From the NCBI GenBank assembly GCA_902575065.1, contig CACGPU010000001.1:184372-248371 (forward strand): a DNA stretch of 64,000 nucleotides. Reading direction: 5' to 3'. Both the position numbers and the translations under genes were made by a program. The notes under the pieces were generated by a model. That model had not been told where the DNA came from. It saw only the letters and a list, made by a program, of their open reading frames with translations, and ran no database searches. Below are positions 37,287 through 56,122 of the stretch, piece after piece; position 1 is the first letter of the stretch, and each line of letters starts with the position of its first letter. This DNA comes from an uncultured Alphaproteobacteria bacterium (GTDB lineage Bacteria > Pseudomonadota > Alphaproteobacteria > HIMB59).

Positions 37287-38564
37287 TTACTGATATGCCT
37301 TGAGATTTAACTCAGCGCTATCAATACCTGCTTTTTGAACTGCATCTGGTACACGTAACCAATTCATCATTTTCATAATAAATGATAAACCATAACCAGG
37401 TACAAATCCTACTAAGAACATGACTATACATCCAACTAACTGTCCACCAAAACTTGTTGGAGGAATATCACCAGATGCTGGATAGCCTGATGCAAATAAT
37501 CCCATTGCAATCACACCCCATATACCGGCAACTCCGTGAACAGATATAGCTCCTACTGGATCGTCGATCTTGAAAACACTATGTAACCAATTATTCGCAG
37601 GAATAATTATCACACCGCCAACAAAACCGAGAACAAAGGCTAATCCTGGATACCAAACATCAAGTCCCGACGCACAAGAGAATATACCTGCAAGTCCACC
37701 TGACATCATCCAGAATGGGTTACCTTTACTCATCCAAAATGCACCAATCATTCCACCGCCAAGACCCATTAGGGTATTGAATGCGAAAGAAGATAGTGTT
37801 GCTGGAGCACCGTAAATGTTTATCCAACCACCAAACTCTGCACCTGCCCAGATTAAACAACCACCGAGGAATCCGAAGAAACCAACAATAATCATTAACA
37901 GGCCTATAAATGAAAAACGAAGGTCATGACCCTCAATCTCATTCGCAGAACCGTCAGCATTGTATTTACCAACTCTAGGACCTAAGTTTAAGACAACTCC
38001 GAAAGCAAACCAACCTGCTACCATGTGAACAACACCAGCTGCTCCAACATCATGATATCCAAATTGTGTTACTAACCATCCATCAGGATGCCAGCCCCAT
38101 GAAGCGGCTAAGATCCAAGCTACTGATCCTAAAACAACAGCTAAGAAAGTAAATGAGCTAATTCTTATTCTCTCAAGAACAGATCCTGAAAAAATAGATG
38201 CTGTGGTACAAGCAAATAATGTAAATGCTGCCCAGAAAACACCTGTGGCTTGGTCACTTAACATTGGTCCCATTGATACGTTCCAAGGGGTTCCATAACC
38301 CTCTAGATCAATAGGAGTAAATCCCATTGGGAATGCTAAATAAATATACCAACCAAATAACCAGAAGGTTGGTATCATAAACGCGAACGCTAAAAGGTTT
38401 TTTGTAGCTGAAGAGACCGCGTTTTTAAAACGAGACGATCCTACTTCATACATCAAGAAACCTACGTGAATTGCAATCATTAACGCAGTACACCACCAAT
38501 AGTAAGCTTCCATACTGACGTTCGCTTGCATCATCACGTACGATTCAAGTTCTTCAAGTGTCAT
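37287..38564 (-). CDS. amtB: Ammonium transporter
   Basis: Amt/Mep signatures: HVGFLMYEVGSSRFKN, DVGAAGVVHMVAGWFAFG, DDPVGAISVHGVAGIWGVIAMGLFA. Confidence 0.94.
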   Translation of the reverse strand: MTLEELESYVMMQANVSMEAYYWWCTALMIAIHVGFLMYEVGSSRFKNAVSSATKNLLAFAFMIPTFWLFGWYIYLAFPMGFTPIDLEGYGTPWNVSMGPMLSDQATGVFWAAFTLFACTTASIFSGSVLERIRISSFTFLAVVLGSVAWILAASWGWHPDGWLVTQFGYHDVGAAGVVHMVAGWFAFGVVLNLGPRVGKYNADGSANEIEGHDLRFSFIGLLMIIVGFFGFLGGCLIWAGAEFGGWINIYGAPATLSSFAFNTLMGLGGGMIGAFWMSKGNPFWMMSGGLAGIFSCASGLDVWYPGLAFVLGFVGGVIIIPANNWLHSVFKIDDPVGAISVHGVAGIWGVIAMGLFASGYPASGDIPPTSFGGQLVGCIVMFLVGFVPGYGLSFIMKMMNWLRVPDAVQKAGIDSAELNLKAYQ

Positions 38565-38797: not shown

Positions 38798-40105
38798 ATG
38801 GCAACTAACCTTCACCAATTTGCTAAAAAAAATGGTGTCAAATATTTTTTTGTAAGCTTTGTAGATTTATTTGGGGTGCTTAGATCAAAGCTTGTACCTG
38901 CAACAGCTATAGATGAAATTCAATCTGAAGGAGCTGGATTTGCAGGTTTTGCAACATGGCTTGATATGTCTCCAGCTGACTCTGATATGTTTGGTATGCC
39001 AGATGGTGATAGTGTTATCCAGCTTCCTTGGAATAAAGAAATAGCTTGGGTTGCCTCTGATTTGTATATTGATGGTAAACCAGTAGAAGCTTCACCCAGA
39101 ATAGCCTTAAAAAGACAAATAGAAAAAGCAGCTAAAAAAAATCTTTATATGAAGTCAGGTGTTGAATGTGAATTTTTTTTGGTCAATGAAGACGGGACAT
39201 CTTTATCAGATCAAAGGGATACGCAAGCAAAACCATGCTATGACTCCTCTGCTTTAATGAGAAGATATGATGTTATCACTGAGATATGTGACTCAATGAT
39301 TGCACTAGGATGGAAACCTTACCAAAACGATCATGAAGATGCGAATGGGCAATTTGAAATGAACTGGGATTTCTCGGATTGTTTAGTAACAGCAGATAGA
39401 CATGCTTTTTTTAAATTTATGGTGAAATCTATTGCAGAAAAACATTCACTAAGGGCAACTTTCATGCCCAAACCTTTTACAAATTTAACAGGTAATGGAT
39501 GTCATTGTCATATTTCTATTTGGGATAAATCTGGCAAAAAAAATATGTTTTTAGATAAAAAAGATGAATTAGGTTTATCCAAAACTGGTTACAATTTCTT
39601 AGGTGGAATAATGGAAAGTGCAGACAAAATGGCTGCTGTTTTTAACCCAACTGTAAACTCCTATAAAAGAATTAACGGTAGTGTAACAACATCAGGTGCA
39701 ACATGGTCGCCAAGCTCGATTACTTGGGCAGGTAACAACAGGACACACATGGTAAGAGTTCCTGGAGCAGGAAGATTTGAATTAAGATTAATGGATGGAG
39801 CTACAAATCCTTATTTACTTCAAGCAGGTATTTTACTTTTAGGTTTGGACGGTTTAAATAATAAAAGAGACCCTGGAAAACGATTAGATATTAATATGTA
39901 CACAGAGGGTCACAAGGCTGGGAAAGTAAAAAAATTGCCATTAAATCTTCTTGATGCAATACGTGATTTTGATAAATCAAAAATCATTAGAGCAGGTTTT
40001 GGTGATGATTTAGTCAATAGCTATGTAAAATTAAAAAATCAAGATTGGGGTACTTTTAATAAACACCTTTCTAGTTGGGAAAGAGAAACAACTCTAGATT
40101 GTTAA
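38798..40105 (+). CDS. Type III-like glutamine synthetase (GlnT) / gamma-glutamylmethylamide synthetase candidate
   Basis: KYFFVSFVDLFGVLRSKLVP, GAGFAGFATWLDMSPADSDM, DHEDANGQFEMNW, GNGCHCHISIWD: resembles rhizobial GlnT and GmaS. Confidence 0.88.
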   Translation: MATNLHQFAKKNGVKYFFVSFVDLFGVLRSKLVPATAIDEIQSEGAGFAGFATWLDMSPADSDMFGMPDGDSVIQLPWNKEIAWVASDLYIDGKPVEASPRIALKRQIEKAAKKNLYMKSGVECEFFLVNEDGTSLSDQRDTQAKPCYDSSALMRRYDVITEICDSMIALGWKPYQNDHEDANGQFEMNWDFSDCLVTADRHAFFKFMVKSIAEKHSLRATFMPKPFTNLTGNGCHCHISIWDKSGKKNMFLDKKDELGLSKTGYNFLGGIMESADKMAAVFNPTVNSYKRINGSVTTSGATWSPSSITWAGNNRTHMVRVPGAGRFELRLMDGATNPYLLQAGILLLGLDGLNNKRDPGKRLDINMYTEGHKAGKVKKLPLNLLDAIRDFDKSKIIRAGFGDDLVNSYVKLKNQDWGTFNKHLSSWERETTLDC

Positions 40106-40112
40106 ATTATTA

Positions 40113-40667
40113 ATGACACCTGAAGTTTTACAAGAAAAGTTTCTTGATTGGCAATGTCAATCTAGAATTCAGGCATTTAGAACACAAAATGGTAGACCAA
40201 ACTCATCTATGGCACCAATATTGCTTGATAAGAAAGGAAATGAACTTCTAAGAATTATTGTTGTAATTTCAGAAAATGATCCTGTAAACACAACAAAACT
40301 GTTTGAACACACATTTAAACGAACTTACGATCCAGCTGATCGATTTGATAAAATGAATAAATTTTTATCTTCTGAATATTTTATGGATAAAGATAAATTT
40401 TCAGACTCTTTATTTGCTACTTTTCCAAAAAATTCAAGTATCTCAAAAAAAGTAGTTAAAGACGGCTCATGTATTTTAGATTTTATTCACCTTTCTACAA
40501 ATTATAGATTGTCATGTTCTCCTTTTATTCTCGATAAAAATGAGGAACATTGGGAAAATATTTTTTGGCATAATAAAAATTTTAATCCTGGTTTGGGGAA
40601 TGACATAGATGTTATAAAGTTTATTCCAAATTGGAAAAAATCTAAATTAATAAGAATTAAAGATTAA
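40113..40667 (+). CDS. Conserved-looking hypothetical protein, co-oriented with glnT-like gene
   Basis: 8-nt gap after the GS-like gene; 184-aa ORF without antisense competitor. Confidence 0.75.
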   Translation: MTPEVLQEKFLDWQCQSRIQAFRTQNGRPNSSMAPILLDKKGNELLRIIVVISENDPVNTTKLFEHTFKRTYDPADRFDKMNKFLSSEYFMDKDKFSDSLFATFPKNSSISKKVVKDGSCILDFIHLSTNYRLSCSPFILDKNEEHWENIFWHNKNFNPGLGNDIDVIKFIPNWKKSKLIRIKD

Positions 40668-40714: not shown

Positions 40715-41191
40715 TTACTCAACTAACTTAAAGTTCTCACCCTTAGCGTATGTTCTTTTTAACTGTACCAAGGGATGGTTAGGTGACATTTGAAACTTAA
40801 TTAAAAGCTCTCTTGCTAACATATCTCTATCTTGTTGGTTTTTTGGAAGTTTAATCTTCTTTGGCAAAGTGATCCAAGCGTTTGCATTTCTGTCAAAAAC
40901 AGCAGGGGTATCACCTTCAAAACCCATATGGATATCCTCTAACCAATTTAAATCATCCCAACCCATAATTTCGATATATTGTTTAAGAAATGGTGTTAAG
41001 TGCTTGTAATCAGGAATTAAGTTAACATCATAACGATAGCCAATATGCTGGCCAATCATTTTTTCTCTTGATGTTTTAATTTCCTTATCTTTTAATTTAG
41101 CTCCGCCGACAACTTGATAACCTTTTGACTTAGTAGGTTTTTTTGATTTTGCAGAAGTTGATTTCTTTTTTGTAACTTTCTTTTTAACCAT
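40715..41191 (-). CDS. Hypothetical protein with Lys-rich N-terminus, last gene of first Mgs module
   Basis: MVKKKVTKKKSTSAKSKKPTKSKG...; 9 nt downstream of MgsC-like gene. Confidence 0.75.
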   Translation of the reverse strand: MVKKKVTKKKSTSAKSKKPTKSKGYQVVGGAKLKDKEIKTSREKMIGQHIGYRYDVNLIPDYKHLTPFLKQYIEIMGWDDLNWLEDIHMGFEGDTPAVFDRNANAWITLPKKIKLPKNQQDRDMLARELLIKFQMSPNHPLVQLKRTYAKGENFKLVE

Positions 41192-41200
41192 AATACTCTC

Positions 41201-42535
41201 CTAAATTGAGTGGTAGTTATCTACACCTACTGTTAAATCTGTACCAGCTAATGGGACTTTAGCCATTGCTGATGACTCCATTGTCAATGCAGCTAGATCT
41301 TCTGGCTCAAGTGAGTGAATGTTTGTCTTACCACATGCTCTTGCTAACATTTGGCACTCAAGAGTCATAGTGCTAAGCAAATTATAAACTCTTTCTGCTG
41401 CCTCTGTTGGGTCTAATCTACTTCTAAGAACAGGATCCTGTGTGGCCACACCAACTGGACATCTACCAGTATGACAGTGATAGCAGTAACCTGCCTCCAC
41501 TCCCATTTCTTTTTCATAATCAGCTTCTGGAATATCTTTGTTACAGTTCAGTGCTACTAATCCAGCTGTACCGATAGCAATAGCATCTGCCCCAAGAGCT
41601 AAGGCTTTAGCCATATCAGCTCCATCTCTAATACCTCCAGCAAATACCAATGATATTTCACCAGTTTTGCCAACATCGTCCAAAGCTCTTCTTGCTTCTC
41701 TAATTGCCCCAATACCAGGAATACCAGTATTAGCTGCTGCGATGTGTGGACCAGCTGCTGTTGAACCTTCCATAGAGTCTAAAAATATAGAGTCAGGGTC
41801 ACATTTTGCTGCCATTCTGACATCGTCATAAACTCTTGATGCGCCTAATTTCAATTGAATTGGCACTTGATTGTCAGTTAATTCTCTTAATTCTTGAACC
41901 TTAAGAGCTAAATCGTCAGGTCCCATCCAGTCTGGGTGTCTAGCAGGAGATCTTTGATCAATACCAGCAGGTAACGATCTCATCTCAGCTACTTGGTCAG
42001 TAACTTTCTGGCCCATTAAGTGACCACCCATCCCAACTTTTTGACCTTGGCCAATGAAAACCTCAATAGCGTCAGCTAATTGAGCATGGTGTGGGTTGAA
42101 GCCATACCTGGATTGAATACATTGATAATACCATTTGTGAGAGTACCTTCTCTCATCAGGTATCATACCCCCTTCTCCAGAGCAAGTTGCACTTCCAGCC
42201 ATTGATGAACCTCTAGCTAAAGCAGTTTTTGCTTCATAAGAAAGAGCACCAAAACTCATACTTGTTATGTAAACAGGAATATCAAGTTTGATAGGATTTT
42301 TTGCTCTAGGACCTATTATTGTTTCTGTTAGACACTTCTCTCTGTAACCTTCAATAACAAATCTTGTTAATGTGCCCGGTAAAAAAACTAAATCATCCCA
42401 GTGAGGAATTTTTTTCATTAACGCCATACCACGCATACGATAACGACCAAGTTGTGATTTGATATGAATGTCGTCCATTACCTCGGGGGTAAAAATTGAG
42501 TTTTGTCCTAATAATTGTGTATTACGTTTTGCCAT
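41201..42535 (-). CDS. Glutamate-synthase-like FMN domain protein (MgsC/GlxD-like), module 1, Fe-S cysteines present
   Basis: MSFGALSYEAKTALARGSSMAGSATCSGEGGM; GIRDGADMAKALALGADAIAIGTAGL; CYHCHTGRCPVGVATQDP. Confidence 0.9.
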   Translation of the reverse strand: MAKRNTQLLGQNSIFTPEVMDDIHIKSQLGRYRMRGMALMKKIPHWDDLVFLPGTLTRFVIEGYREKCLTETIIGPRAKNPIKLDIPVYITSMSFGALSYEAKTALARGSSMAGSATCSGEGGMIPDERRYSHKWYYQCIQSRYGFNPHHAQLADAIEVFIGQGQKVGMGGHLMGQKVTDQVAEMRSLPAGIDQRSPARHPDWMGPDDLALKVQELRELTDNQVPIQLKLGASRVYDDVRMAAKCDPDSIFLDSMEGSTAAGPHIAAANTGIPGIGAIREARRALDDVGKTGEISLVFAGGIRDGADMAKALALGADAIAIGTAGLVALNCNKDIPEADYEKEMGVEAGYCYHCHTGRCPVGVATQDPVLRSRLDPTEAAERVYNLLSTMTLECQMLARACGKTNIHSLEPEDLAALTMESSAMAKVPLAGTDLTVGVDNYHSI

Positions 42536-43371
42536 TAGCCTAATATTCCTTTCTTTTCTGCTGGCTCTAGATTGTCATAATTCCAGAGCATTCTTCCTGC
42601 AACGTATTTCTTAAATTTTGAAGCTGGGACTTTGCAATCAATCTCAGCATTTTTAATTTTTTGTTCTAGCCATCTAACCTCGTGTTCATTCATTTCACCA
42701 GGTACGCAGTCTGTTCCAAGCGAATGAGGCTCTCCTCCTACAAAAATGATTCCATCATACATTGAGTCACCCATGTTTGCGTTTACATCACCACAAACTA
42801 TAATTCTTCCTCTTTGCATCATAAATCCAGTGTAAGCTCCAGCATTTCCGCCAATAAGAATAGTGCCACCTTTCATATCAATTCCGGTTCTTGCACCTGC
42901 ATCGCCTTTAACAATAAGGTCACCGCCTCTAAGAGCAGCTCCAAAACAAGATCCTGCATTGTTTTCAACAACAACTTTTCCTGACATCATATTTTCAGCA
43001 CATGACCAACCAACTCTTCCATTAACTCTCACTGTTGGTCCATCGATACAACCGATACCAAAATAACCTAAGCTACCCTCAAAGATTAAGTTTAACTTAT
43101 TTAGAATTCCCACACCAAGTGAATGTTTTGCACCAGGGTTTTTAATAACTATAGACCCATATCCCTTTCGAATTGCATCTCTAATTTTTTGATTCAATTC
43201 ATGAGCATCAATGCCTTCACAATCAATGGAGGTTCTTTTATTAAAATCAACTTCGTGATTACCGTAGTAGGTATAATTTTCTTCTTCTGTTACTTCAAAA
43301 TATAATTTTTGCGATCTACCTGATAAATTTTCATCATCAAAAGCAGTAGTTCTTTTTGTTATGCCTGCCAT
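42535..43371 (-). CDS. GXGXG-domain protein (MgsB/GlxC-like), module 1
   Basis: Repeats VNGRVGWSCAENMMSGKVVVENNAGSCFGAALRGGDLIVKGDAGARTGIDMKGG typical of the GltB C-terminal domain. Confidence 0.9.
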   Translation of the reverse strand: MAGITKRTTAFDDENLSGRSQKLYFEVTEEENYTYYGNHEVDFNKRTSIDCEGIDAHELNQKIRDAIRKGYGSIVIKNPGAKHSLGVGILNKLNLIFEGSLGYFGIGCIDGPTVRVNGRVGWSCAENMMSGKVVVENNAGSCFGAALRGGDLIVKGDAGARTGIDMKGGTILIGGNAGAYTGFMMQRGRIIVCGDVNANMGDSMYDGIIFVGGEPHSLGTDCVPGEMNEHEVRWLEQKIKNAEIDCKVPASKFKKYVAGRMLWNYDNLEPAEKKGILG

Positions 43372-44300
43372 ACTTTTACCTCCGCTTCATAAGGGTCATA
43401 TGTTTTAATTTCGTGAGGAAATATATTCCTAATTGCAACTTCCTCTGATGCACATGCTACGATGTCTTTACTTTCGTAGATTACCATTGGCTTAGCGGCC
43501 ATATGGTCTTTTGCCATTCCCAACTGATCCTTTGTTGCTACAACATATGTAAAAACTCCATCGAGTTCATCCAAGCTATCATGCATAGCTTTTTCTAGTT
43601 CAATGCCGTTAGCCATCTTATCAGCTATATAGACAGCAATTATTTCTGAGTCACAATTTGAATTAAACCTGTAACCTTTTCTTTCAAGTACTCTTCGATT
43701 GCCCCAATAATTAGTCAATTGACCATTATGAACAACTGACACATCCTCAAAAGGGAAGGCCCAATAAGGGTGTGCGGATTTAATATCTACATCAGACTCG
43801 GTAGCCATCCTTGTATGGCCAATACCGTGGGTACCCATAAATTTATCAAGGCCATATTGATTGGATACAGTATTTGCATCGCCTAAGTCTTTAATGAGCT
43901 CGAGACCCTTACCAATTGATAAAATTTCAGTTTTTTCGACTGTTTCTATCTCAGTAGCCAAATCTGTGAGGTCACCTTTAAAATCAAATATATATCTGAA
44001 AGCGTATGGGGTGCTGGAGCTTTCTTTTGTTACTTTAGCACCATGTTTTTTTAAAATAGAGTCGACAGCATTTTTTCTATTTTTTAAATCAGCAGGTGAG
44101 TCGACAGTTGCATTTACCTTTTCAGCCTCGTTTTCAGATATTTTAAATCTCATTACAAAGCCTTTTTTTAAAGGTGTTCCGTACATAGCATATCCCGTTG
44201 AGTCAGGTCCCCTATGTTTAAGACCTTGTAACATAAGGCCCATTTGTTCACCGACGTTGACTGTCTTCTTTTTATTTATAACTCCAGCTATTCCACACAT
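43359..44300 (-). CDS. Class II glutamine amidotransferase (MgsA/GlxB-like), module 1
   Basis: MCGIAGVIN N-terminal Cys; HRGPDSTGYA; GHTRMATESDVDIKSAHPY. Confidence 0.9.
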   Translation of the reverse strand: MCGIAGVINKKKTVNVGEQMGLMLQGLKHRGPDSTGYAMYGTPLKKGFVMRFKISENEAEKVNATVDSPADLKNRKNAVDSILKKHGAKVTKESSSTPYAFRYIFDFKGDLTDLATEIETVEKTEILSIGKGLELIKDLGDANTVSNQYGLDKFMGTHGIGHTRMATESDVDIKSAHPYWAFPFEDVSVVHNGQLTNYWGNRRVLERKGYRFNSNCDSEIIAVYIADKMANGIELEKAMHDSLDELDGVFTYVVATKDQLGMAKDHMAAKPMVIYESKDIVACASEEVAIRNIFPHEIKTYDPYEAEVKVWQA

Positions 44301-44319
44301 ACTTTTCTCCTATCTTATC

Positions 44320-45789
44320 TTATGGTAAGCAATCTAGGTATTTATCGAGATCCCATTGAGTCGGAGTTGCTAAAAATTCTTCCCACTCATCTCTTTTATA
44401 CTCCATAAACACTTTCATCATGTCACCTGGTAGAGCATCTTGTATTACCTTGTCGGTTTCTAATCGATCTAATGCCTCACCAAGAGTCATTGGTAATTTT
44501 TCAACTTGCTTACCAGCTTTCATTTGTTCATACATATTTTGTTGTTCAGGTTTGCCTGGATCCATTTTCTTTGTAATACCATGGTCGAATGCTTTCAACA
44601 GACCGCTTCCCATTAAGTATGGGTTGTGGGCTGAGTCGACTGATCGATATTCAAATCTACCAGGGGCAGATACCCTTAAACCACAGGTTCTGTTTTGATA
44701 TCCCCAGTCCGCATAAACTGGAGCCCAAAAACCTGTATCCCAAAGTCTTCTATATGAATTCACAGTTGAGGAACCCAAGGCTGTCAAAGCAGGAAGGTGT
44801 TCCATGACACCACCAATTGCTTGAAGGCCTATTTTTCCAGGAATTCTTCTATCTTTTCCGTCCGGCATAAAGACATTTGTACCTCCTCTACGGTGATGAA
44901 ATACATTTTCCATACCTGGGATAGTCTTGTTACCACATGGTATTAACTCATCTTTTCCGCCCTTCCAGAGTGAAATATTTGTGTGACACCCAGAAGCAGA
45001 CACGCCGACAAATGGCTTACTCAGAAAACAAGCAATCAAATTAAATTCTCTTGCTACTTGAGCACATATTTGTCTGTAAGTTGATAACCTGTCAGCGTTT
45101 CTAACAACATCATCGTAGTTGAAATTTAGTTCTAATTGTCCAGGCGCGTCCTCATGATCACCTTGGATAATGTCCAAACCCATTGCACGTGAATACTCAA
45201 TTACTTTCATGTAAACAGGTCTTAATGATTCAAATTGATCAATGTGATAGCAGTAGGGCTTAGAGAAACCTGAACCGGTCGGTGAACCATCTTCGTTTTT
45301 TGTTAACCACATCATTTCAGGTTCTGTCCCTGCTCGTAATTCTAGTTTGTGTTTCTTTTTAAATTCTTCGTGGGCTCTTTTTAAGTTACCTCTGCAATCA
45401 GATGTAAGATATCCACCAGGATCTTTTTCTTCTTCCCTGTTTCTAAAACAAGTACAAAAAACTCTGGCAATTCTTTTATCCCATGGAATTTGAACAAATG
45501 TTTCAGGGTCAGGTATACCCACTAATTCGTGAGCCTCTGGTCCATAACCTATGTAATCACCATGTCTATTTGTAAATAGATTAGCAGTAGCTCCATAAAC
45601 TAATTGGAAACCTTTATTGGCTACACTCTCCCAATGATCTGCAGGAACACCTTTACCTACAATTCGACCTGTAACAGAAATAAATTGATAATAAATGTAC
45701 TCAATTCCTAATTTATCAATTTTTTTTCTAACTTGTTTTATATAGTCTTGTCTCTTTTTATCCTTAACGTACGTTTCTAGCGCTGTCAT
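44320..45789 (-). CDS. Glutamine-synthetase-family ligase, amine substrate unknown
   Basis: GTEPEMMWL, GDHEDAPGQLELNFNYDD, ASGCHTNISLWKGG, NSYRRLWD. Confidence 0.88.
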   Translation of the reverse strand: MTALETYVKDKKRQDYIKQVRKKIDKLGIEYIYYQFISVTGRIVGKGVPADHWESVANKGFQLVYGATANLFTNRHGDYIGYGPEAHELVGIPDPETFVQIPWDKRIARVFCTCFRNREEEKDPGGYLTSDCRGNLKRAHEEFKKKHKLELRAGTEPEMMWLTKNEDGSPTGSGFSKPYCYHIDQFESLRPVYMKVIEYSRAMGLDIIQGDHEDAPGQLELNFNYDDVVRNADRLSTYRQICAQVAREFNLIACFLSKPFVGVSASGCHTNISLWKGGKDELIPCGNKTIPGMENVFHHRRGGTNVFMPDGKDRRIPGKIGLQAIGGVMEHLPALTALGSSTVNSYRRLWDTGFWAPVYADWGYQNRTCGLRVSAPGRFEYRSVDSAHNPYLMGSGLLKAFDHGITKKMDPGKPEQQNMYEQMKAGKQVEKLPMTLGEALDRLETDKVIQDALPGDMMKVFMEYKRDEWEEFLATPTQWDLDKYLDCLP

Positions 45790-45810
45790 TTTATTCCTCC
45801 TCCTTTTACA

Positions 45811-47157
45811 TCAACTCCAAGGGAACGGGCTCTTTGAAACCGGATGTAACTTCCCTTCTTCATAACGAGAAAATCTAAAAGGTTCTAGAATTTCAGATTT
45901 CTCACCAAGTAACTCATTAGATACAAGATCACCTAACCCAGCCATTTTGTATCCATGGTTTGCATCAGCTATAATATATACGTTTTCTCTGTATCGGTCG
46001 AATACGGGAAAACGATCTGGAGTAACACAGCCAATACCGCCAGCTTTTTGCTTTTTGTATTTAGCGTGACATCCATCAAATTGCTTTTGGCAAAAAGCCA
46101 AAGCTGAGGTCCATTTATCCTCAAAAGAAGCCCTTGGTTGAAACTCATCTGAGTCATGACCATAAGGGTCAAGACTTATATCGTTTACAGGTTTATTTAT
46201 GTCATATGGAGAGGAGCCGCCTTGTATACCATCTCTGTAGACATCGGGCTTATAGTAAAAACCCCACATAACATTTTCATGTATAACATCTCCTGTTTTA
46301 TTTGAGACAAGTGTAGCTTCTGTATCAACATGAATAACTGGGTACTCTGTTCCGTTTGCTGTTTTATAACTTCTTGGATCAACTTCCAACTCACCCTCTT
46401 CAAGCGCCATGTATGACCACATAGGTATATCATCAGTAAATGAACCATCAGGTTTTTTTATTTTTACGGTGTTAGGTAATTCTAAAATTTCCCAGAATTT
46501 TCTTACCCATGGACCAGCCGCAACAACTAATTGAGTGCATTCAATTTTACCCTCTGATGTTTCTACAGCCGAAACTGCGCCACTACCATTAGAAGAAATT
46601 AAATTGTTAACAGTCACACCTTCTAAAACTTTTGCACCAGCCGATACTGCTAACTTATGGAAGCCCTCTATGGCTCCTCTATTAGCTCCATATCCTGTTT
46701 TCTTTTCGTGTAAAACTGAAGTGATGCCTTGAGCTTGCCAATCTGGCAACATGTCTTTCATATACTTATCACAATCTGATGCTCCCTCAATAAACTCAGA
46801 GTCAAATCCTATTTCTTTTTGCTGCTCATAAACTTCAGACATTCCCTCTTGCATAAGCTCGGAGTTGATCTGCATGTAGCCAACTGGCTTGTAAGTTAAA
46901 GCCTCAGCATTCTCATTCCAAACATTTACAGAATGAGCCATTAGTCTTCTCATTGCAGGCTGGTAGTAATTGTTCCTTACAATTCCACATGCAACACCAC
47001 TAGCTCCATTTGCAACTTTGGATTTTTCCAAAACGACTACAGAATTTTCTTTGAGTTGGCCTTTGCTGGATAATTTTTTACAAAGATGCCATGCGGTGCT
47101 CAGACCGTGAATTCCAGCACCGATTATTAAATAGTCACATTTAGTAGGTAAGCTCAT
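45811..47157 (-). CDS. FAD-dependent oxidoreductase, DAO/sarcosine-oxidase-beta-like (start moved to MSLPTKCDY)
   Basis: YLIIGAGIHGLSTAWHL dinucleotide-binding motif; C-terminal NVYIIADANHGYKMAGLGDLVSNELLG. Confidence 0.88.
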   Translation of the reverse strand: MSLPTKCDYLIIGAGIHGLSTAWHLCKKLSSKGQLKENSVVVLEKSKVANGASGVACGIVRNNYYQPAMRRLMAHSVNVWNENAEALTYKPVGYMQINSELMQEGMSEVYEQQKEIGFDSEFIEGASDCDKYMKDMLPDWQAQGITSVLHEKKTGYGANRGAIEGFHKLAVSAGAKVLEGVTVNNLISSNGSGAVSAVETSEGKIECTQLVVAAGPWVRKFWEILELPNTVKIKKPDGSFTDDIPMWSYMALEEGELEVDPRSYKTANGTEYPVIHVDTEATLVSNKTGDVIHENVMWGFYYKPDVYRDGIQGGSSPYDINKPVNDISLDPYGHDSDEFQPRASFEDKWTSALAFCQKQFDGCHAKYKKQKAGGIGCVTPDRFPVFDRYRENVYIIADANHGYKMAGLGDLVSNELLGEKSEILEPFRFSRYEEGKLHPVSKSPFPWS

Positions 47158-47212: not shown

Positions 47213-47239
47213 ATTTTGTTTCATATTATGAAACAAAAT
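47213..47239. promoter_or_regulatory. Candidate IclR-family operator, 27-nt palindrome
   Basis: ATTTTGTTTCATA-T-TATGAAACAAAAT: 13-nt perfect arms; core TGTTTCATATTATGAAACA at 47217-47235. Confidence 0.8.
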
Positions 47240-47274: not shown

Positions 47275-48045
47275 TCAATTGGCAACAATTAGTCGAGAAA
47301 TTTTAATAGAGGCAGATTGAAGGAGATCAACATAATCCATCATAGTTTTTGGGTTTAAGATATTTTTACTTCCTGATAAAGCGATTCCTGCAAATGATCT
47401 TTTATCTTTGTCTAAAATAGCAACTCCTATTCCATAAGAGTTTTCAAAAGCTTCTCCATGATTAAGCGCATAACCGTTAGTTCTAATTTTGCCAAGTTGT
47501 CTTTTTAAATCATTTAAATTTGTAATTGTATTGTTTGTGTGAGGATAAAAATTATAGCTTCGATAAATTGTTGCAATTTCATTTTCAGGTCTGTACGCAA
47601 GCATGACTTTTCCTAAAGCACAGCAATGAGCGTCAAGTCTCATTCTAAAAGTTCTAATAGTTGCATCATCATTGTTGTCAGAAATTTTATCAGAATGAAC
47701 TATTTGAGATCCTTCAAGCATTGCCAAATAGGTAATTAAATTCGTTTTACTAGAGACCTCTTTTAAAATTTCTTTAGAAGTCTCAGAAATTGACTGAAGA
47801 TAATCTGAGGTTTCTCCAAATTGAAAAGCTTTATGTCCCATAGTGTATGTATTCGATCCAGTATTTTTATGGATATAACCAAGTTGAGATAAAACAGACA
47901 ATAGTCTAAATGTAGTTGTTCTAGATAAAACTGCTTTTCTAGAAATATTTGATGCCTTCAACGGGAAAATTGATTTTGATAAAATTTCAAGAATTTTGAA
48001 AGATTTTTCCAGAGACTTATTTATATATTTTAAATCTTGTTGCAA
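47275..48045 (-). CDS. IclR-family transcriptional regulator
   Basis: KSFKILEILSKSIFPLKASNISRKAVLSRTTTFRLLSVLSQLGYIHK wHTH; C-terminal MRLDAHCCALGKVMLAY and SYGIGVAILD. Confidence 0.93.
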   Translation of the reverse strand: MQQDLKYINKSLEKSFKILEILSKSIFPLKASNISRKAVLSRTTTFRLLSVLSQLGYIHKNTGSNTYTMGHKAFQFGETSDYLQSISETSKEILKEVSSKTNLITYLAMLEGSQIVHSDKISDNNDDATIRTFRMRLDAHCCALGKVMLAYRPENEIATIYRSYNFYPHTNNTITNLNDLKRQLGKIRTNGYALNHGEAFENSYGIGVAILDKDKRSFAGIALSGSKNILNPKTMMDYVDLLQSASIKISRLIVAN

Positions 48046-48115: not shown

Positions 48116-49435
48116 TTAAATCTTTCCAGGCACCCAACCCGTTCCCGCTAAAGGAACCCTTGCCATTGCAGCAGCTTCAACTGTTAATGCACATAGGTCC
48201 TCAGGTTCAAGATTATGTAAATCGTTTTTACCGCATGCCCTGGCTATAGTTTGGGCTTCAAGAGTCATAACCTTGAGATAATTAGATAATCTTTTTCCAC
48301 CTTTTACTGGATCTAACCTTTTCATTAATTTTGGGTCTTGTGTATTTATACCAGATGGGTCTTTACCTTCATGCCAATCATCGAAAGCACCAGCTGTTGT
48401 TCCAAGTTTTTTGTAATCGCTCTCCCACTTTGGATCATTATCACCAAGTGCGATTAATGCTGATGAACCAATGGAAACAGCATCAGCACCCAATGCCATT
48501 GCTTTTGCAACATCCGCACCATTTCTAATTCCACCTGAAATAATTAACTGAACCTTCCTGTGCATATCTAAGTCTAATAAAGCATCTACTGCTGGCCTGA
48601 TACACGCCAATGTTGGCTGACCTACATTTTCGATAAATACCTCCTGTGTAGCTGCAGTACCTCCTTGCATACCATCAAGCACCACCACATCAGCACCTGC
48701 TTTTACTGCAAGAGCAGTATCGTAGTAAGGCCTAGATCCTGCAATTTTTACAAATATGGGAACTTTCCAACCTGTTATTTCCCTGAGCTCTAAAATCTTA
48801 ATTTCCAAATCATCTGGTCCGGTCCAATCTGGATGTCTACATGCTGATCTCTGATCAATTCCTTTTGGTAATGTTCTCATCTCGGCAACACGATCACTTA
48901 TCTTTTGACCGAGTAACATACCTCCACCGCCAGGTTTAGCACCTTGACCTATCACAACTTCAATAGCATCTGCTTTTCTTAAATCCTCTGGATTCATTCC
49001 ATACCTTGAGGGAAGTAATTGGTAAACCAAATGCTTTGATTGTCCTCTCTCCTCAGGGGTCATGCCTCCATCGCCTGTTGTCGTTGAAGTCCCGGCAATA
49101 CTAGCTCCTCTTCCAAGCGCTTCTTTCGCAGGTCCTGAGAGAGCTCCAAAGCTCATTCCAGCAATTGTTATTGGAATATCTAATTCAAGCGGTTTTTTTG
49201 CAAATCTTGTTCCAAGAGTGACGTTAGTACTACACTTTTCTCTGTAGCCCTCTAAGGGGTATCTTGACATTGATGCGCCTAAAAAAAGAAGATCGTCAAA
49301 ATGAGGTAATCTTTTTTTTGAACCACCGCCTCTAATGTCATAAATACCTGTTTCTGCAGCTCTTCGAATTTCAGAGTTTGTATAGTCATCAAATGTCCAA
49401 GATTTTCTTGGTGTAGTTTTAAATTTTTCTGCCAT
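48116..49435 (-). CDS. mgsC: Glutamate-synthase-like FMN domain protein (MgsC-like), module 2, Fe-S cysteines absent
   Basis: MSFGALSGPAKEALGRGASIAGTSTTTGDGGM; GIRNGADVAKAMALGADAVSIGSSAL; adjacent to SoxBDAG-like genes. Confidence 0.88.
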   Translation of the reverse strand: MAEKFKTTPRKSWTFDDYTNSEIRRAAETGIYDIRGGGSKKRLPHFDDLLFLGASMSRYPLEGYREKCSTNVTLGTRFAKKPLELDIPITIAGMSFGALSGPAKEALGRGASIAGTSTTTGDGGMTPEERGQSKHLVYQLLPSRYGMNPEDLRKADAIEVVIGQGAKPGGGGMLLGQKISDRVAEMRTLPKGIDQRSACRHPDWTGPDDLEIKILELREITGWKVPIFVKIAGSRPYYDTALAVKAGADVVVLDGMQGGTAATQEVFIENVGQPTLACIRPAVDALLDLDMHRKVQLIISGGIRNGADVAKAMALGADAVSIGSSALIALGDNDPKWESDYKKLGTTAGAFDDWHEGKDPSGINTQDPKLMKRLDPVKGGKRLSNYLKVMTLEAQTIARACGKNDLHNLEPEDLCALTVEAAAMARVPLAGTGWVPGKI

Positions 49436-50118
49436 TAGTACTCCGATACATTATCTATATTAAAATTATAAAGTTTTCTTGCTGAACCATACATTTTGAA
49501 GTTTTTAATCTCACTTTCATTTATACTTGCTTTTTTTAAAAGAGATCTCAAAATATTTTGATCTTTTTTATTCATTTTTTTCTCTTCGCAGTCAGCACCG
49601 AGTGATTTCACCTTACCCTTAATAAAAATATTTGCTTCATAGATACTGTCTCCCAGAGCGTCTCCAGCATCTCCACATATAACTAAATTTCCAGATTGAG
49701 CCATAAATGCAGACATATGGCCTACCGATCCTTTAACTATAATATCTATTCCTTTCATTGAAATCCCACAACGTGAACTAGTATCACCATCAATGATCAA
49801 AGTTCCACCATGTGCTGTAGCACCGGCTGATTGGGATGCATTGCCCTTAACATGAACAGTTCCAGACATCATATTTTCTGCAACACCTGTGCCCACATTT
49901 CCATTTACAATGATATTTGCATTCATGTTCATACCAGCACAATAGTATCCTGTGTGACCATCAATAGTGACTTCAATCTCGTCTTTTAGTCCAGCACAAA
50001 TAGCGTGATTTCCATCTGGATTTGAAATTTTAAAAATCTTTTTGTTTGATTTTCTATCTATACTCTGAAGAGTTTCATTAACTTTTCTCAATGACTCTTT
50101 TTTTAAATTTAAATTCAT
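49435..50118 (-). CDS. mgsB: GXGXG-domain protein (MgsB-like), module 2
   Basis: VNGNVGTGVAENMMSGTVHVKGNASQSAGATAHGGTLIIDGDTSSRCGISMKG. Confidence 0.87.
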   Translation of the reverse strand: MNLNLKKESLRKVNETLQSIDRKSNKKIFKISNPDGNHAICAGLKDEIEVTIDGHTGYYCAGMNMNANIIVNGNVGTGVAENMMSGTVHVKGNASQSAGATAHGGTLIIDGDTSSRCGISMKGIDIIVKGSVGHMSAFMAQSGNLVICGDAGDALGDSIYEANIFIKGKVKSLGADCEEKKMNKKDQNILRSLLKKASINESEIKNFKMYGSARKLYNFNIDNVSEY

Positions 50119-50999
50119 TATTTGCCCCAGCTGTATACTTTTCCGGGCTCTGGTTCAAAAATTTTTGCTGAATTTACATTTGGTAAGTGTGCCATTGCTT
50201 GAAACTCTGAGGCAATAGCAACATAATCCTTTGTTTCTGCAACAACTGCGGGTTTACAAGCTATCTCATCTCTAACAATTGCCATGCCATTTTTGGTTCC
50301 AGAAATAAATGTGTAAAAACCATCGAGGTCCTTCAGTCCATCCAAAAGTGTTTCTTTGAGTGATTTTTTATCAATTAATCCGTTTGAAATATAACCTGCA
50401 GCGACTTCCGTATCATTCAAGGACTTTATTTCAATCCCTTTTTTCTGAAGCGATCTTCTTAAATTGTTGTGATTTGACAAAGATCCGTTATGTACAAGAC
50501 ATTCATCCTCGCCTGTGGAATATGGATGAGAGCCGTCTGTCGTGATTGCACTTTCTGTTGCCATCCTTGTATGCCCAATAGCATGTGAGCCAGAAAACTT
50601 CTCTAGTGAAAAATTTTTAACAACATCCTTCGGATTTCCTACTTGTTTAAATATTTCTATGCAACTACCATACCCAACTAAACTTAATTCATCATGATTT
50701 TTTAAAATTTCTATAAATTTCTTTGGCTTCATTGCTGTTTCAATTATTAAATGATCTGAAATAGATTTTACTTTGATATCTTTTACTTGCTTAGATAGTT
50801 TTTTTGAAATTTCTTTTACTTGATCAGTATTAGAGCAGACCGAATATTTATATTTCTTTTTTTTCTCAGATGAGTATATCGCAAAACCTGCACTATCAGG
50901 ACCACGCGTAGCCATACTATTCATCATTCCAGTAAGAAATTTACCTAATTGTGAATTATATTTTTTATTTTTTAAATATATTCCAACTATACCGCACAT
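50118..50999 (-). CDS. mgsA: Class II glutamine amidotransferase (MgsA-like), module 2
   Basis: MCGIVGIYLK; ATRGPDSAGFAIYS; GHTRMATESAITTDGSHPY. Confidence 0.87.
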   Translation of the reverse strand: MCGIVGIYLKNKKYNSQLGKFLTGMMNSMATRGPDSAGFAIYSSEKKKKYKYSVCSNTDQVKEISKKLSKQVKDIKVKSISDHLIIETAMKPKKFIEILKNHDELSLVGYGSCIEIFKQVGNPKDVVKNFSLEKFSGSHAIGHTRMATESAITTDGSHPYSTGEDECLVHNGSLSNHNNLRRSLQKKGIEIKSLNDTEVAAGYISNGLIDKKSLKETLLDGLKDLDGFYTFISGTKNGMAIVRDEIACKPAVVAETKDYVAIASEFQAMAHLPNVNSAKIFEPEPGKVYSWGK

Positions 51000-51004
51000 T
51001 AATA

Positions 51005-51598
51005 TTAAATACCCTCATACCCATACTCTAATGACGAGTCAGTAATGCTATGGTAAAAAGAACCACCAAAGCTTCTTAATGCATAAAGGTTAAAACAAAA
51101 CGGTTGGTCGTCTAAATAGTCGATCAGTATGTTAATTCCGTTATATGTCGTGTTCACGCAATTATTTGGTTTAAACATATTTTCATTAAAATTTATTGGA
51201 GAACCTTTTTTTAAAACATTTTTTGCATTTACGCCTGATATTTGTAATACAGCTCTTGATTGTGAAATATCTGTAATGGCAAAATCCTCATCTCTAATCG
51301 ATTTATAAATTTCGTCTTTCAAGTCAATTTTTTTTGAGATAATTAACCAGGTATCAGGACCGGTCCACAATACTCTTGTTTCTTGGTTGTGAGAAACTTT
51401 TAGACTTTCTGTCGGTAAATTAAGTTGATTTATGGTAACTTTTTCAATCTCAATTGAGCTTTTTTTAAATTTAGCAATTTGGATAATACTTAGGTCTTTT
51501 ATTTCTGAAATTTTTAATAGGTTTTCTTTATTCTCATAGTCGCCAAACAAGCCGAGCTTATGATCAAAATGAAGTGGTGATAGGTTTTGTGCTCCCAT
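51005..51598 (-). CDS. mgdD: N-methylglutamate dehydrogenase / sarcosine oxidase gamma-type subunit
   Basis: WTGPDTWLIIS, DISQSRAVLQISGVNAKNVLKKG; SoxG-like, operon position. Confidence 0.82.
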   Translation of the reverse strand: MGAQNLSPLHFDHKLGLFGDYENKENLLKISEIKDLSIIQIAKFKKSSIEIEKVTINQLNLPTESLKVSHNQETRVLWTGPDTWLIISKKIDLKDEIYKSIRDEDFAITDISQSRAVLQISGVNAKNVLKKGSPINFNENMFKPNNCVNTTYNGINILIDYLDDQPFCFNLYALRSFGGSFYHSITDSSLEYGYEGI

Positions 51599-54597
51599 TA
51601 TGATCTTACCCTTGAGCCTTCGGGATCAACATAGTGTGAGGATACTACCTCAACAGGAATTGAAATATCTTTCAAAGGAGAGACAGCATATAGATTTTTA
51701 CCAATTTTATTTTTACCATCTTTTATAATAGCTATGGAAAAAGGATTATTATATTCAACACTCCAACAAGAAGATGAAACATGACCAAGTTTAGGTATTG
51801 GGGCAACAGCACTATTGTCTTCTATAATATGTGAACCCTCTGGGATCTTTGTTTTTTTGTCTAGTGGAACAAGTCCAACAATAGTTTGTCTATCCGACTC
51901 AGTGAATGCATCTTTAGATAAAGATCTTTTACCTATGAAATCTTTTTTCTGACTCACCATACTATTCAGTCCAACATCAAAAGGAATAGTACGTCCGTCT
52001 AATTCTGCTCCTGCGACATGACCCATTTCTATTCTTAAGGTTGATAGAGCTTCTGTTCCGTATGGTTGAATATCAAATGACTGTCCTACTTCCATGATCT
52101 TCTTCCACATATAAAGACCATAGTTTGACTCGACATTTACCTCATAAGCTAGTTCGCCAGAAAAAGAAATTCTATAAATTCTAGCTTTGATACCGTCTAT
52201 TGAAGAGTCCACTAGCCCCATGAATGGTAAGCCCTCATTAGACATATCTACATCAGGAAATAACTTAGATAAAAGATCTCTAGACTTTGGACCTGCCACT
52301 GCTATACCAGACCACTGTTCAGTAGTTGATAAGACATTTACATCTAAATCTGGCCATACAACTTGTAAATAATACTCTAAGTGCGATAAAACATTTGCAG
52401 CTTGGGCAGTAGTGGTAGTCATATGAAAATGATTTTCAGATAATCGAGATGTTGTTCCATCATCAAAAACCATGCCATCTTCCCTTAGCATTACACCATA
52501 TCTAGCTTTTCCAACGGGCAGTTTCAGCCATGCATTTGTATAAACTCTGTTTAAGAATTCTGGTGCATCCGGACCTTTAATATCAATCTTACCAAGTGTA
52601 GTAACATCACAAATTCCAACGTTTTTTCTTACATTTGCAGCTTCCCTATTAACAGCACTGTTCATATCCTCAGAACCCCTTGGGTAGTATCTGGGTCTTT
52701 GCCATAAACCTGCTGCTACAAAAACAGCATTATTTTCCTCATGCCATGTATGAATGGGAGATTTTCTTGTTGGTAAATAGTGATTACCAACTTCTCTACC
52801 CACGATAGCTCCAATTGTTACAGGAGTGTATGGTGGTCTAAATGTTGTATGACCAACTTCTGGAACAATCTTTTTTTCAATTTTAGATACATATTGCAAA
52901 CCATTTAAATTACTTGTCTTGCCTTGATCGCCAGCCATCCCAAGAGTTGTATATCTTTTGACGTGCTCAATTGATCTGAAGCCTTCTCTAATTGCTAGCT
53001 CTACATCAGAAACTGCAACGTCATTTTGAAAGTCGATAAAGCGTTTTGGTTTTTTTCCAGATGGTAAAGGCATACACCAGAGCTTTTCATGCTTTTCATA
53101 GCTAGGTTCATTTGAGTTGGGACTATTTGTAGGATTATTTTGATCTGTGAATTTGTTTGATAAATCAAAGCCCACTTGAAAACCTTCAGCTAGAGATTGA
53201 TTTAATGTAAAAGAACCATTAGCTGCTCCAATTGCTGTTTCTTTTTGTCTTTTTTTATCCGGTACGAACGCATCAATATCATCATTGAACTTTAATTTAT
53301 TTCCAGCTTGGGAAGATAGATGAACTGTTGGTGTCCAGCCACCGGACATACAAATGCAATCACACTCTACTGTTTCTTCTGAAATAAAAGACTCTTTTGA
53401 AGAGTCAAGCTTGCCAATGATAGCAGAATTTATCTTCAAATGTCCTTTAGTGTCTGCGATCCCTGAATTAAATTTTATAGAAATACCCTTTTGCTGAACT
53501 TCCTTGACTAATTCACCGTTTGAGCTGTCTCGAGTGTCTACAATGATTGGTTCAATATCATTTTTAATAAACTCAAGGGCAGTTGAATATGCTGTATCAT
53601 TATTGGTAAATATAATTGGTTTCTTACCAACTAATGTTTCATAAACCTTCATATACTCTTTTGCTGCTGAGGCTAATACAATTCCTGGTCTATCATTATT
53701 TCCAAAAGATATTGGTCTTTCAATAGAACCAGTTGAAACTATTACTTCTCCAGCTCTAATATAATGTAATCTTTGTCTGGGAGTGTATTTTGATGGATTT
53801 TCAATATGATCGCTAACTCTTTCAATCATTACGGTCATATTGTGATCATAGTATCCGAAGACTTGTGACCTTTTTTTTAATATTACATTTGGCATACTTT
53901 TTAGTTGGGAAATGGTATCACTAGCCCACTCTTTTCCTGACATGTTACCAATCGTAACTTCGTCAGTTAGAAGAGAGCCACCAAAATTAGGCTTGTCTTC
54001 TGCTAATATAACCCTTGCCCCATTTTTAGCAGCAGCCAGAGCACTTGCGAGGCCTGATGGGCCAGAGCCAACAACTAGTACATCGCAGTGTTCATAATTA
54101 TGTTCGTACCTATCTGGGTCAGGTAACAGTGGTGCTTTACCCATACCAGCAGCTTTTCTTATAAATGGTTCATAGATTTTCATCCAAAAACTTTTTGGCC
54201 ACATAAATGTTTTGTAATAGAAACCTGCAGGAAAAAAACGATTTAAGACATTATTTATTTCTCCAATATCAAATTGAACTGAAGGCCAACAATTTTGACT
54301 TTTAGCTTTTAATCCCTCAACTAACTCAACTTCGGTTGCAATGATATTAGGTTCAGATTTATTACCATCATGCAATTGAACCATTGCATTTGGTTCTTCA
54401 ACACCAACTCCCAAAAAACCGCGAGGTCGATGATACTTAAAACTTCTTCCAACTAAATGAACACCATTTGCAATTAAAGCAGATGCAAGAGTGTCTCCTT
54501 CATAGCCATGATAAATAGTACCGTTAAAAGTAAAGTTAATTTTTTTATCCTTATTAATAAGTCCATTTGAGTTGGTTGTTCTAAAATTGTTAGACAT
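51598..54597 (-). CDS. mgdC: N-methylglutamate dehydrogenase / sarcosine oxidase alpha-type subunit
   Basis: N-terminal 2Fe-2S-like fold (GDTLASALIANGVHLVGRSFKYHRPRG), VVGSGPSGLASALAAAKNGARV, C-terminal GcvT domain. Confidence 0.88.
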   Translation of the reverse strand: MSNNFRTTNSNGLINKDKKINFTFNGTIYHGYEGDTLASALIANGVHLVGRSFKYHRPRGFLGVGVEEPNAMVQLHDGNKSEPNIIATEVELVEGLKAKSQNCWPSVQFDIGEINNVLNRFFPAGFYYKTFMWPKSFWMKIYEPFIRKAAGMGKAPLLPDPDRYEHNYEHCDVLVVGSGPSGLASALAAAKNGARVILAEDKPNFGGSLLTDEVTIGNMSGKEWASDTISQLKSMPNVILKKRSQVFGYYDHNMTVMIERVSDHIENPSKYTPRQRLHYIRAGEVIVSTGSIERPISFGNNDRPGIVLASAAKEYMKVYETLVGKKPIIFTNNDTAYSTALEFIKNDIEPIIVDTRDSSNGELVKEVQQKGISIKFNSGIADTKGHLKINSAIIGKLDSSKESFISEETVECDCICMSGGWTPTVHLSSQAGNKLKFNDDIDAFVPDKKRQKETAIGAANGSFTLNQSLAEGFQVGFDLSNKFTDQNNPTNSPNSNEPSYEKHEKLWCMPLPSGKKPKRFIDFQNDVAVSDVELAIREGFRSIEHVKRYTTLGMAGDQGKTSNLNGLQYVSKIEKKIVPEVGHTTFRPPYTPVTIGAIVGREVGNHYLPTRKSPIHTWHEENNAVFVAAGLWQRPRYYPRGSEDMNSAVNREAANVRKNVGICDVTTLGKIDIKGPDAPEFLNRVYTNAWLKLPVGKARYGVMLREDGMVFDDGTTSRLSENHFHMTTTTAQAANVLSHLEYYLQVVWPDLDVNVLSTTEQWSGIAVAGPKSRDLLSKLFPDVDMSNEGLPFMGLVDSSIDGIKARIYRISFSGELAYEVNVESNYGLYMWKKIMEVGQSFDIQPYGTEALSTLRIEMGHVAGAELDGRTIPFDVGLNSMVSQKKDFIGKRSLSKDAFTESDRQTIVGLVPLDKKTKIPEGSHIIEDNSAVAPIPKLGHVSSSCWSVEYNNPFSIAIIKDGKNKIGKNLYAVSPLKDISIPVEVVSSHYVDPEGSRVRS

Positions 54598-54862
54598 TAA
54601 AGTCCTCGTTCATTTTACAAGTGTCAAAAATTTCATGTGTAGCGGTGTCTCTTGAGACTTTAAACCATTGTCTACATCCAGAAACATGATGCCATAGTTC
54701 TGAGTGTTTTCCTCTTGGGTTATCTCTGTAGTAAACAAAATTATCCCAATCCTCGGTTGAAATTTCTTCTCCTAGTTGAGGTCTTTTTATAGTGGCGTCT
54801 CCGCCATAAGAAAATTCATTTTGTGAGCGCTTGCCACAGTATGGGCATTTTATTTCTAACAT
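54590..54862 (-). CDS. mgdB: N-methylglutamate dehydrogenase / sarcosine oxidase delta-type subunit
   Basis: IKCPYCGKRSQNEFSYGGDA ... ELWHHVSGCRQWFKVSRDTATHEI. Confidence 0.88.
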   Translation of the reverse strand: MLEIKCPYCGKRSQNEFSYGGDATIKRPQLGEEISTEDWDNFVYYRDNPRGKHSELWHHVSGCRQWFKVSRDTATHEIFDTCKMNEDFNV

Positions 54863-54865
54863 CTA

Positions 54866-56122
54866 TTAACCGATCCAAGGTTTAGGGCCTACACCCTTTT
54901 CATCTATAATTTTTCCAGTATGGAATCTTTCAAGGTTAAAGTCTGAGTTGAGTTCATGTACTTGATCTTGTGCTATTGTATGTGCAAAAACAAAACCTGA
55001 GCTAGGAGTAGCTTTAAAGCCGCCGTAACACCAACCGCAATTAAGATATACCCCCTCAATATGAGTTTTATCGATTATTGGAGAACCATCCATGGACATA
55101 TCCATAATACCTCCCCAAGTTCGAAGCATTTTGAGTCTACTAAAGTTTGGGAAGACAGCCAATCCACCTGTTAAAACATGCTGTATCATTGGCATATTTC
55201 CTCTTTGAGCATAGCTATTGTAACCATCCAAATCACCACCCATAACCATTTCACCTTTGTCAGATTGGCTACAATAAAAGTGACCTGCTCCGAATGTAAC
55301 TACATTATGAAGTAAAGGTTTAACTGGTTCTGAGACACAAGCTTGCAGAACATGTGCTTCAATTGGAAGTCTCATATTTAACATGTCTGCTAAAAGTGTT
55401 GTGCTTCCAGCAACACACAATCCAACTTTTTTAGTTTTAATATTTCCTCTTGATGTTTGAACGCCTTCTATTTTTCCGTTGTTAACATCAAAACCTGTCA
55501 CTTCACAATTTTGAATTATATCGACACCCATTGAGTCTGCCTGTCTCGCATATCCCCAAGCAACTGCATCATGTCTTGCAGTTCCCCCACGTGGCTGCAT
55601 TAAACCACCATGAATAGGAAAACGACATGTTTCTGAAAAATCTGCAAATGGGATCATCTTTTTTAAATCATCCCTTCCAAGAAGAATTGCATCAATACCA
55701 TTTAATCTCATAGAGTTACCTCTTCTAGCGTAAGCATTCATTTGAGCATCAGAGTGAGCTAAGTTTATAATTCCTCTCGGTGAGTACATAACGTTGTAAT
55801 TTAATTCTTGGCTAAGTGTTTCCCAAAGCTTCATGCCAAACTCATAAAAATGAGCGTTTGAATCAAACATATAGTTAGATCTCAAGATGGTAGTGTTTCT
55901 TCCAACATTACCTCCACCAATCCAACCCTTTTCAAGTATGGCAACGTTTGTGATGCCATGTTCTTTTGCAAGATAATAAGCTGTTGCAAGACCATGACCA
56001 CCACCGCCTACAATTATGACATCGTATTCTTTTTTAGGCTCAGGGTCTTTCCAAGCTACCTCCCAATTTTCATGGTTGGTGAAAGCATTTTTTACTAAAC
56101 TAAAAACTGAGTACTTTTGCAT
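54866..56122 (-). CDS. mgdA: N-methylglutamate dehydrogenase / sarcosine oxidase beta-type subunit
   Basis: VIIVGGGGHGLATAYYLAKEHGITNVAILEKGWIGGGNVGRNTTILRSNY. Confidence 0.9.
   Translation of the reverse strand: MQKYSVFSLVKNAFTNHENWEVAWKDPEPKKEYDVIIVGGGGHGLATAYYLAKEHGITNVAILEKGWIGGGNVGRNTTILRSNYMFDSNAHFYEFGMKLWETLSQELNYNVMYSPRGIINLAHSDAQMNAYARRGNSMRLNGIDAILLGRDDLKKMIPFADFSETCRFPIHGGLMQPRGGTARHDAVAWGYARQADSMGVDIIQNCEVTGFDVNNGKIEGVQTSRGNIKTKKVGLCVAGSTTLLADMLNMRLPIEAHVLQACVSEPVKPLLHNVVTFGAGHFYCSQSDKGEMVMGGDLDGYNSYAQRGNMPMIQHVLTGGLAVFPNFSRLKMLRTWGGIMDMSMDGSPIIDKTHIEGVYLNCGWCYGGFKATPSSGFVFAHTIAQDQVHELNSDFNLERFHTGKIIDEKGVGPKPWIG

Follow-up and report, generated by a model that had tools for sequence, protein, structure and literature searches.

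Positions 40715-47157 of the window (the whole 64,000-nucleotide stretch that was analysed, part of a 1.25-Mb draft genome with a GC content of about 33%) carry six tightly packed minus-strand genes in the order DAO, ligase, MgsA, MgsB, MgsC and U, referred to here as the module (Table 1). The gaps between consecutive genes are 21, 19, -13, -1 and 9 bases, a spacing from which a single operon is inferred from sequence alone. The DAO start at 47157 was preferred to the longer open reading frame at 47214 because the orthologues start with MxLP. Upstream of the module, on the same strand, lie an IclR-family regulator, the canonical mgsABC set and mgdABCD; beyond these are tmm and tdm. Rfam gave no match near the module operon.

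Table 1 Features of the module and its surroundings (window positions).
Feature	Coordinates	Strand	Remarks
Ammonium transporter (amt)	37287..38564	-	recurrent module neighbour
GmaS (gamma-glutamylmethylamide synthetase), canonical route	38798..40105	+	TIGR03105 645 bits, cut-off 469.6
X40, module-associated protein, FMN split-barrel fold	40113..40667	+	AlphaFold pLDDT 95.7; Foldseek matches to PNPOx-like proteins
U, conserved orphan protein, 158 aa, module marker	40715..41191	-	no family; position of SAR11_1309
MgsC-like Glu_synthase (FMN) subunit	41201..42535	-	PF01645 3.5e-85; CxxCxxxxC Fe-S-type motif
MgsB-like GXGXG subunit	42535..43371	-	PF01493 6e-16
MgsA-like class II glutamine amidotransferase subunit	43359..44300	-	GATase_6/7; Cys2 nucleophile retained
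GS44, GS-like ligase	44320..45789	-	PF00120 (Gln-synt_C); proposed gamma-glutamyl-dimethylamide synthetase; position of SAR11_1305
DAO45, DAO-family FAD oxidoreductase	45811..47157	-	PF01266 7e-35; N,N-dimethylglutamate demethylase (proposed); corresponds in position to SAR11_1304 of HTCC1062 ('monomeric sarcosine oxidase')
IclR-family regulator, between canonical mgs set and module	47275..48045	-	PF01614/PF09339
mgsCBA, canonical N-methylglutamate synthase set	48116..50999	-	
mgdABCD/soxBDAG-type heterotetramer	51005..56122	-	proposed next enzyme after the module
Tmm-like trimethylamine monooxygenase	56296..57630	+	
Tdm-like TMAO demethylase	58996..61347	-	relatives characterised as DMA producers

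Module enzymes and their canonical paralogues

The module is made of old paralogues of the neighbouring GmaS/MgsABC/MgdABCD set, which it duplicates in kind: the identity is 29% between GS44 and GmaS, 31% for the MgsA pair, 37% for the MgsB pair and 50% for the MgsC pair, and DAO shares 23% with SoxB over 213 aa. Since the paralogue identities reach only 29-50%, the divergence must be old, and a recent duplication is ruled out. The initial annotation had described a tight minus-strand operon with a ligase, an MgsABC-type synthase and a flavin dehydrogenase, duplicating the adjacent set in kind, with a single DAO chain in place of the four-subunit enzyme and a ligase clearly different from the GmaS at 38798. 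All of this held: coordinates and domains were confirmed, the dehydrogenase is a single PF01266 chain, and GS44 reaches 300.9 bits with the GmaS model TIGR03105, below the cut-off, against 645 bits for GmaS.

The GS44 orthologues keep, in the alignment, the counterparts of RhGmaS Gln175, Asp177, Glu179, Glu186, Asn188 and Trp300 (catalytic roles from PMC7948447); the equivalents of Asp177 and Glu186 are invariant in every aligned orthologue, which meets the criterion for a GmaS-type amine ligase mechanism. The Asp50' aspartate and the Glu-flap glutamate of glutamine synthetase (GS) are missing, replaced as in GmaS. GS44 differs from GmaS in an invariant Gly instead of Asn between Gln175 and Asp177, a Pro instead of Asn after HEDA, and an insert of about ten residues in the Asp50' loop. 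These residues would fit a mechanism like that of GmaS, with an amine pocket of altered shape; that this pocket accommodates dimethylamine (DMA) is an inference. RhGmaS takes DMA poorly (Km of 16 mM versus 27 uM for methylamine, MMA), and a specialised ligase would therefore be expected.

Two other identities were rejected for the ligase. An ordinary glutamine synthetase is ruled out by the GmaS-type catalytic residues and the absence of the GS Asp50/Glu-flap residues, the activity itself being inferred without an assay. The Puu pathway is ruled out by a score of 228 bits against the GGputSyn cut-off of 650. The initial annotation had named two outcomes that would refute it, recent duplicates or a ligase with ordinary glutamine synthetase activity only; the first was not met, given the old divergence, nor was the second, as judged from the GmaS-type residues in the absence of activity data.

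Among the remaining proteins, the MCGI start (Cys2) and the VHNG motif of the MgsA-like subunit are invariant, as is the CxxCxxxxC motif of the MgsC-like subunit. Across Alphaproteobacteria, the DAO proteins share 51-83% identity. DAO has no close solved relative, the nearest solved structures being enzymes that act on amino acids; in a family profile search it resembled N-demethylating and amine-oxidising families only weakly. Protein U has no match in Pfam, NCBIfam or PDB. Its core is strongly conserved (mean column identity 55% in an alignment of 29 sequences), its structure model is weak (pLDDT 70, low confidence) and without a fold match, and its role as an accessory subunit is only inferred. 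X40, encoded downstream of GmaS, belongs to no Pfam family; its homologues lie beside U in many Alphaproteobacteria, mostly on the opposite strand.

Distribution, gene order and linkage to tdm

U is a good marker of the module. An alignment scan of GTDB genomes with U gave at least 579 confirmed loci, the top 80 of which belong to HIMB59, Pelagibacteraceae and one Geminicoccaceae; none was found in the plasmid collection. The order DAO-ligase-A-B-C-U is exact in 48/48 loci outside HIMB59 (SAR11/Geminicoccaceae) that have DAO, and also in the own genus, so the arrangement is not due to chance. The same order extends across AEGEAN-169/HIMB59, Pelagibacterales and many other Alphaproteobacteria: in a class-wide draw, 28 of 289 genomes, from many families, carry the module, not counting one additional U hit at 6e-4.

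Departures from this order were seen in a few genomes. DAO lies apart from the rest of the module in G127 and G326 and is not nearby in G231 and G319; in these genomes the ligase and synthase genes stay together, beside tdm. In G272 (L165 7738-13190) the GS44-type ligase is replaced by one of GmaS type (58%), which stands before mA-mB-mC-U. Two lineages have a gene for a nitrilase-family carbon-nitrogen hydrolase linked to the module (L155 13051-13911; L165 13194-14039), and in G131 (L146 16786-19583, flipped locus) the module is followed, about 3.6 kb downstream, by another, divergent mgsABC-like set with 36-43% identity.

The module is linked to genes of TMAO metabolism. In 37 of the 48 SAR11/Geminicoccaceae loci, the first recognised gene met upstream of DAO codes for a homologue of the Tdm of this window; the two genes overlap in one locus (L053) and are 3 bases apart in another (L077), and tdm lies just downstream of U in the Geminicoccaceae locus. 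In many other families tmm-tdm, a TMAO-type ABC transporter, and mgd/sox or gmaS-mgs genes are found near the module; amt and IclR/GntR regulators are frequent neighbours. The published locus tags of HTCC1062 (PMC3160333, PMC5069961, PMC2704228) list 1302 as opuAC, 1303 as an aminomethyltransferase, 1304 as 'monomeric sarcosine oxidase', 1305 as 'glnT', 1309 as hypothetical, 1310 as amt, 1313-1315 as glxBCD and 1316 as GS III. Reading 1302 as TmoX and 1303 as Tdm, both by inference, 1302-1310 would fit tmoX-tdm-DAO-ligase-...-U-amt, the mapping of 1303-1309 being inferred from order and annotation.

Co-occurrence with Tdm and the DmmA family

Aerobic marine bacteria that have been characterised process DMA with DmmDABC, and DmmA belongs to PF11927. 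We used PF11927 as a proxy for DmmA; absences rest on profile searches of the genomes. In the 289 Alphaproteobacteria the module was present in 19/26 Tdm carriers and in 9/263 other genomes (odds ratio 77, p 1e-17). A first sample of 23 Tdm carriers outside the genus included 17 with the module without PF11927, five with PF11927 without the module and one with neither; a second, phylum-wide sample of 23 new Tdm carriers had PF11927 in 23/23 and the module in 0/23. Combined, the 46 carriers comprise 17 module-only genomes, 28 PF11927-only genomes, none with both and one with neither (G220, where tdm is on a 3-kb contig). The Fisher p of the combined profile is 1e-11; both p-values treat genomes as independent despite their kinship. 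At E<=1e-4, PF11927 was absent from 26/26 module carriers outside the genus. In several Tdm carriers a PF11927 hit is found near tmm and tdm; in G080 the only hit is of a weaker subtype.

Counted by family, the module alone occurs in ten families and dmm alone in ten others, without overlap. On the Tdm tree the label needs 5 changes, at least 3 of them forced by well-supported branches; a ClpX tree of 29 genomes, taken as a species proxy, gives 4 label changes (bootstrap 3-5), and on it the single-clade arrangement was not rejected (AU p 0.067). A phylogeny-corrected sign test was not significant, the independent pairs being too few for power. The exchange between module and dmm is thus a repeated pattern with few independent events, and the clustering of both traits in families weakens the statistics.

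The HIMB59 genus itself encodes a distant PF11927 relative (HODM/DmmA-like; e.g. G000:C4:35428-35940; E ~1e-16) in 22/22 genomes examined. This protein, of about 255-267 aa, scores far below DmmA-type hits; it could possibly act on DMA, which would be a competing explanation for DMA use. One genome of the genus, G028, has tdm without U, with tdm on a 7-kb contig. Nine module carriers have no Tdm. A GmaS hit was obtained in 22/28 module carriers, three of the six without one being >=95% complete, and at least one SoxB/MgdA-like protein was found in 28/28, some of these proteins probably being sarcosine oxidases.

A proposed dimethylamine route and its rivals

We consider it likely (probability roughly 0.7) that the six genes specify a pathway which uses glutamate as a scaffold to process DMA, the compound that Tdm makes by demethylating TMAO. 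The sequences show the gene content, the constant gene order, the linkage to tdm/tmm, the GmaS-type residues and the mutual exclusion of module and DmmA family; substrate, intermediates and catalysis are inferred, without biochemistry. DMA is singled out because the module is linked to tdm/tmm and because it and the DMA monooxygenase family exclude each other. The initial annotation had inferred a parallel route serving a different amine or a different step, with dimethylamine and a longer-chain amine as examples; this is supported and narrowed to dimethylamine, a substrate still inferred. In the proposed pathway Tdm would convert TMAO to DMA, which the GS-like ligase would join to glutamate at the expense of ATP to form gamma-glutamyl-N,N-dimethylamide; from this, the MgsABC-like complex would make N,N-dimethylglutamate by shifting the dimethylamino group to the alpha carbon; the single-chain FAD enzyme (DAO) would remove one methyl group as formaldehyde, leaving N-methylglutamate; and the neighbouring MgdABCD would return glutamate. 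The module would replace DmmDABC, bypassing free methylamine and GmaS. The module carriers without a GmaS hit could be explained in this way, because N-methylglutamate would be made directly and GmaS would not be needed.

In a bolder reading, which we hold to be more likely than not, the module is an undescribed DMA route that closes a published gap in the methylated-amine catabolism of SAR11/AEGEAN-169 and is exchanged with DmmDABC across Alphaproteobacteria. SAR11 lacks dmmDABC, from which Lidbury et al. (2017) inferred an oceanic DMA 'bottleneck', with DMA escaping as an aerosol precursor (PMC5520151). HTCC1062 nevertheless grows when TMAO is its only nitrogen source, and a 2022 paper proposed that the strain would 'recruit an isoenzyme of DmmDABC' (PMC8918994); growth on TMAO nitrogen without dmmDABC, the one published growth result that bears on DMA use, means that some DMA-consuming enzyme is expected. 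Sun et al. (2011) noted an additional oxidase, SAR11_1304, that might act on 'unknown substrates'. The openly licensed literature searched (paywalled work was outside the search) contained no proposal of this cluster for DMA, and nothing relevant on a DMA route through dimethylglutamate or glutamyl-dimethylamide. If the reading is true, DMA is open to use by the most abundant heterotrophs of the sea, both the bottleneck argument and the gene markers from which it was inferred need revision, and two new glutamate-bound intermediates join C1 and nitrogen metabolism.

The closest rival is a second MMA route of different affinity or regulation, in which DAO would be a single-chain N-methylglutamate dehydrogenase replacing MgdABCD. 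The enzyme classes are those of the known MMA route, six carriers have no GmaS hit, and G272 has a GmaS-type ligase inside the cluster. However, most carriers already have GmaS, an MMA duplicate leaves the exclusion with the DmmA family unexplained, and the carriers lacking GmaS are equally accounted for if the module yields N-methylglutamate directly; we regard this rival as unlikely.

Less probable still are two further alternatives. DAO alone might oxidise DMA to MMA, which the ligase and synthase would then process; tdm and DAO are adjacent or overlapping in many SAR11 loci, and the weak similarity of DAO to N-demethylating and amine-oxidising families is compatible with it. Against it, most of these genomes already have GmaS/MgsABC to deal with MMA, the nearest solved relatives of DAO act on amino acids, and the ligase and synthase genes remain beside tdm where DAO is separated or not nearby. 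The substrate might also be an unrelated amine (ethylamine, ethanolamine or a polyamine), connected to trimethylamine genes only by shared nitrogen regulation, as the carriers without tdm and the common amt and IclR/GntR neighbours could suggest. This is hard to reconcile with the strong, replicated Tdm association and the DmmA exclusion; moreover, SAR11 polyamine use has been assigned to transamination (PMC8437039), and the ligase falls far below the gamma-glutamylputrescine synthetase cut-off.

The proposed DMA route shares its logic and classes (GS-like ligase, GATase/GXGXG/Glu_synthase complex, flavin N-demethylase) with the N-methylglutamate pathway. The module meets the three-subunit MgsABC criterion, with the domains in order and 31-50% identity to the canonical set, but its ligase, only 29% identical to GmaS, does not reach the TIGR03105 cut-off, and it has a single DAO chain where the heterotetrameric MgdABCD is present only in the canonical set next door. 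It would thus work like the N-methylglutamate pathway, a function that is inferred, while failing two defining tests (the GmaS-type cut-off and a heterotetramer of its own); it adds protein U, the Tdm linkage and the inferred DMA substrate. DmmDABC would occupy the same metabolic slot below Tdm without sequence relation, no module gene matching PF11927: it is a monooxygenase that frees MMA, whereas the module is proposed to act by ATP-dependent glutamylation that bypasses free MMA. The Puu gamma-glutamylputrescine pathway also combines a GS-like ligase with a DAO-family oxidase; the module additionally has a synthase complex, and its ligase is separated by the score given above. The MgsABC-like subunits correspond to the domains of GltB of glutamate synthase (GltBD), split over three proteins, and the module operon contains no GltD partner.

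Two further observations concern the canonical genes and their surroundings. The canonical MgsC of this genome (48116-49435, minus strand) has lost the Fe-S cysteine motif and reads DDWHEGKDPSG; the motif is also lost in the canonical MgsC of near relatives and in most sampled SAR11 copies, and a HIMB59-like complete genome and others retain CHHCHTGKCPVG at this site. A third GS-like ligase (34411-35808, minus strand; TIGR03105 358 bits, under the cut-off) lies near a class I amidotransferase-like gene (36131-36871, minus strand), possibly forming another gamma-glutamylation unit.
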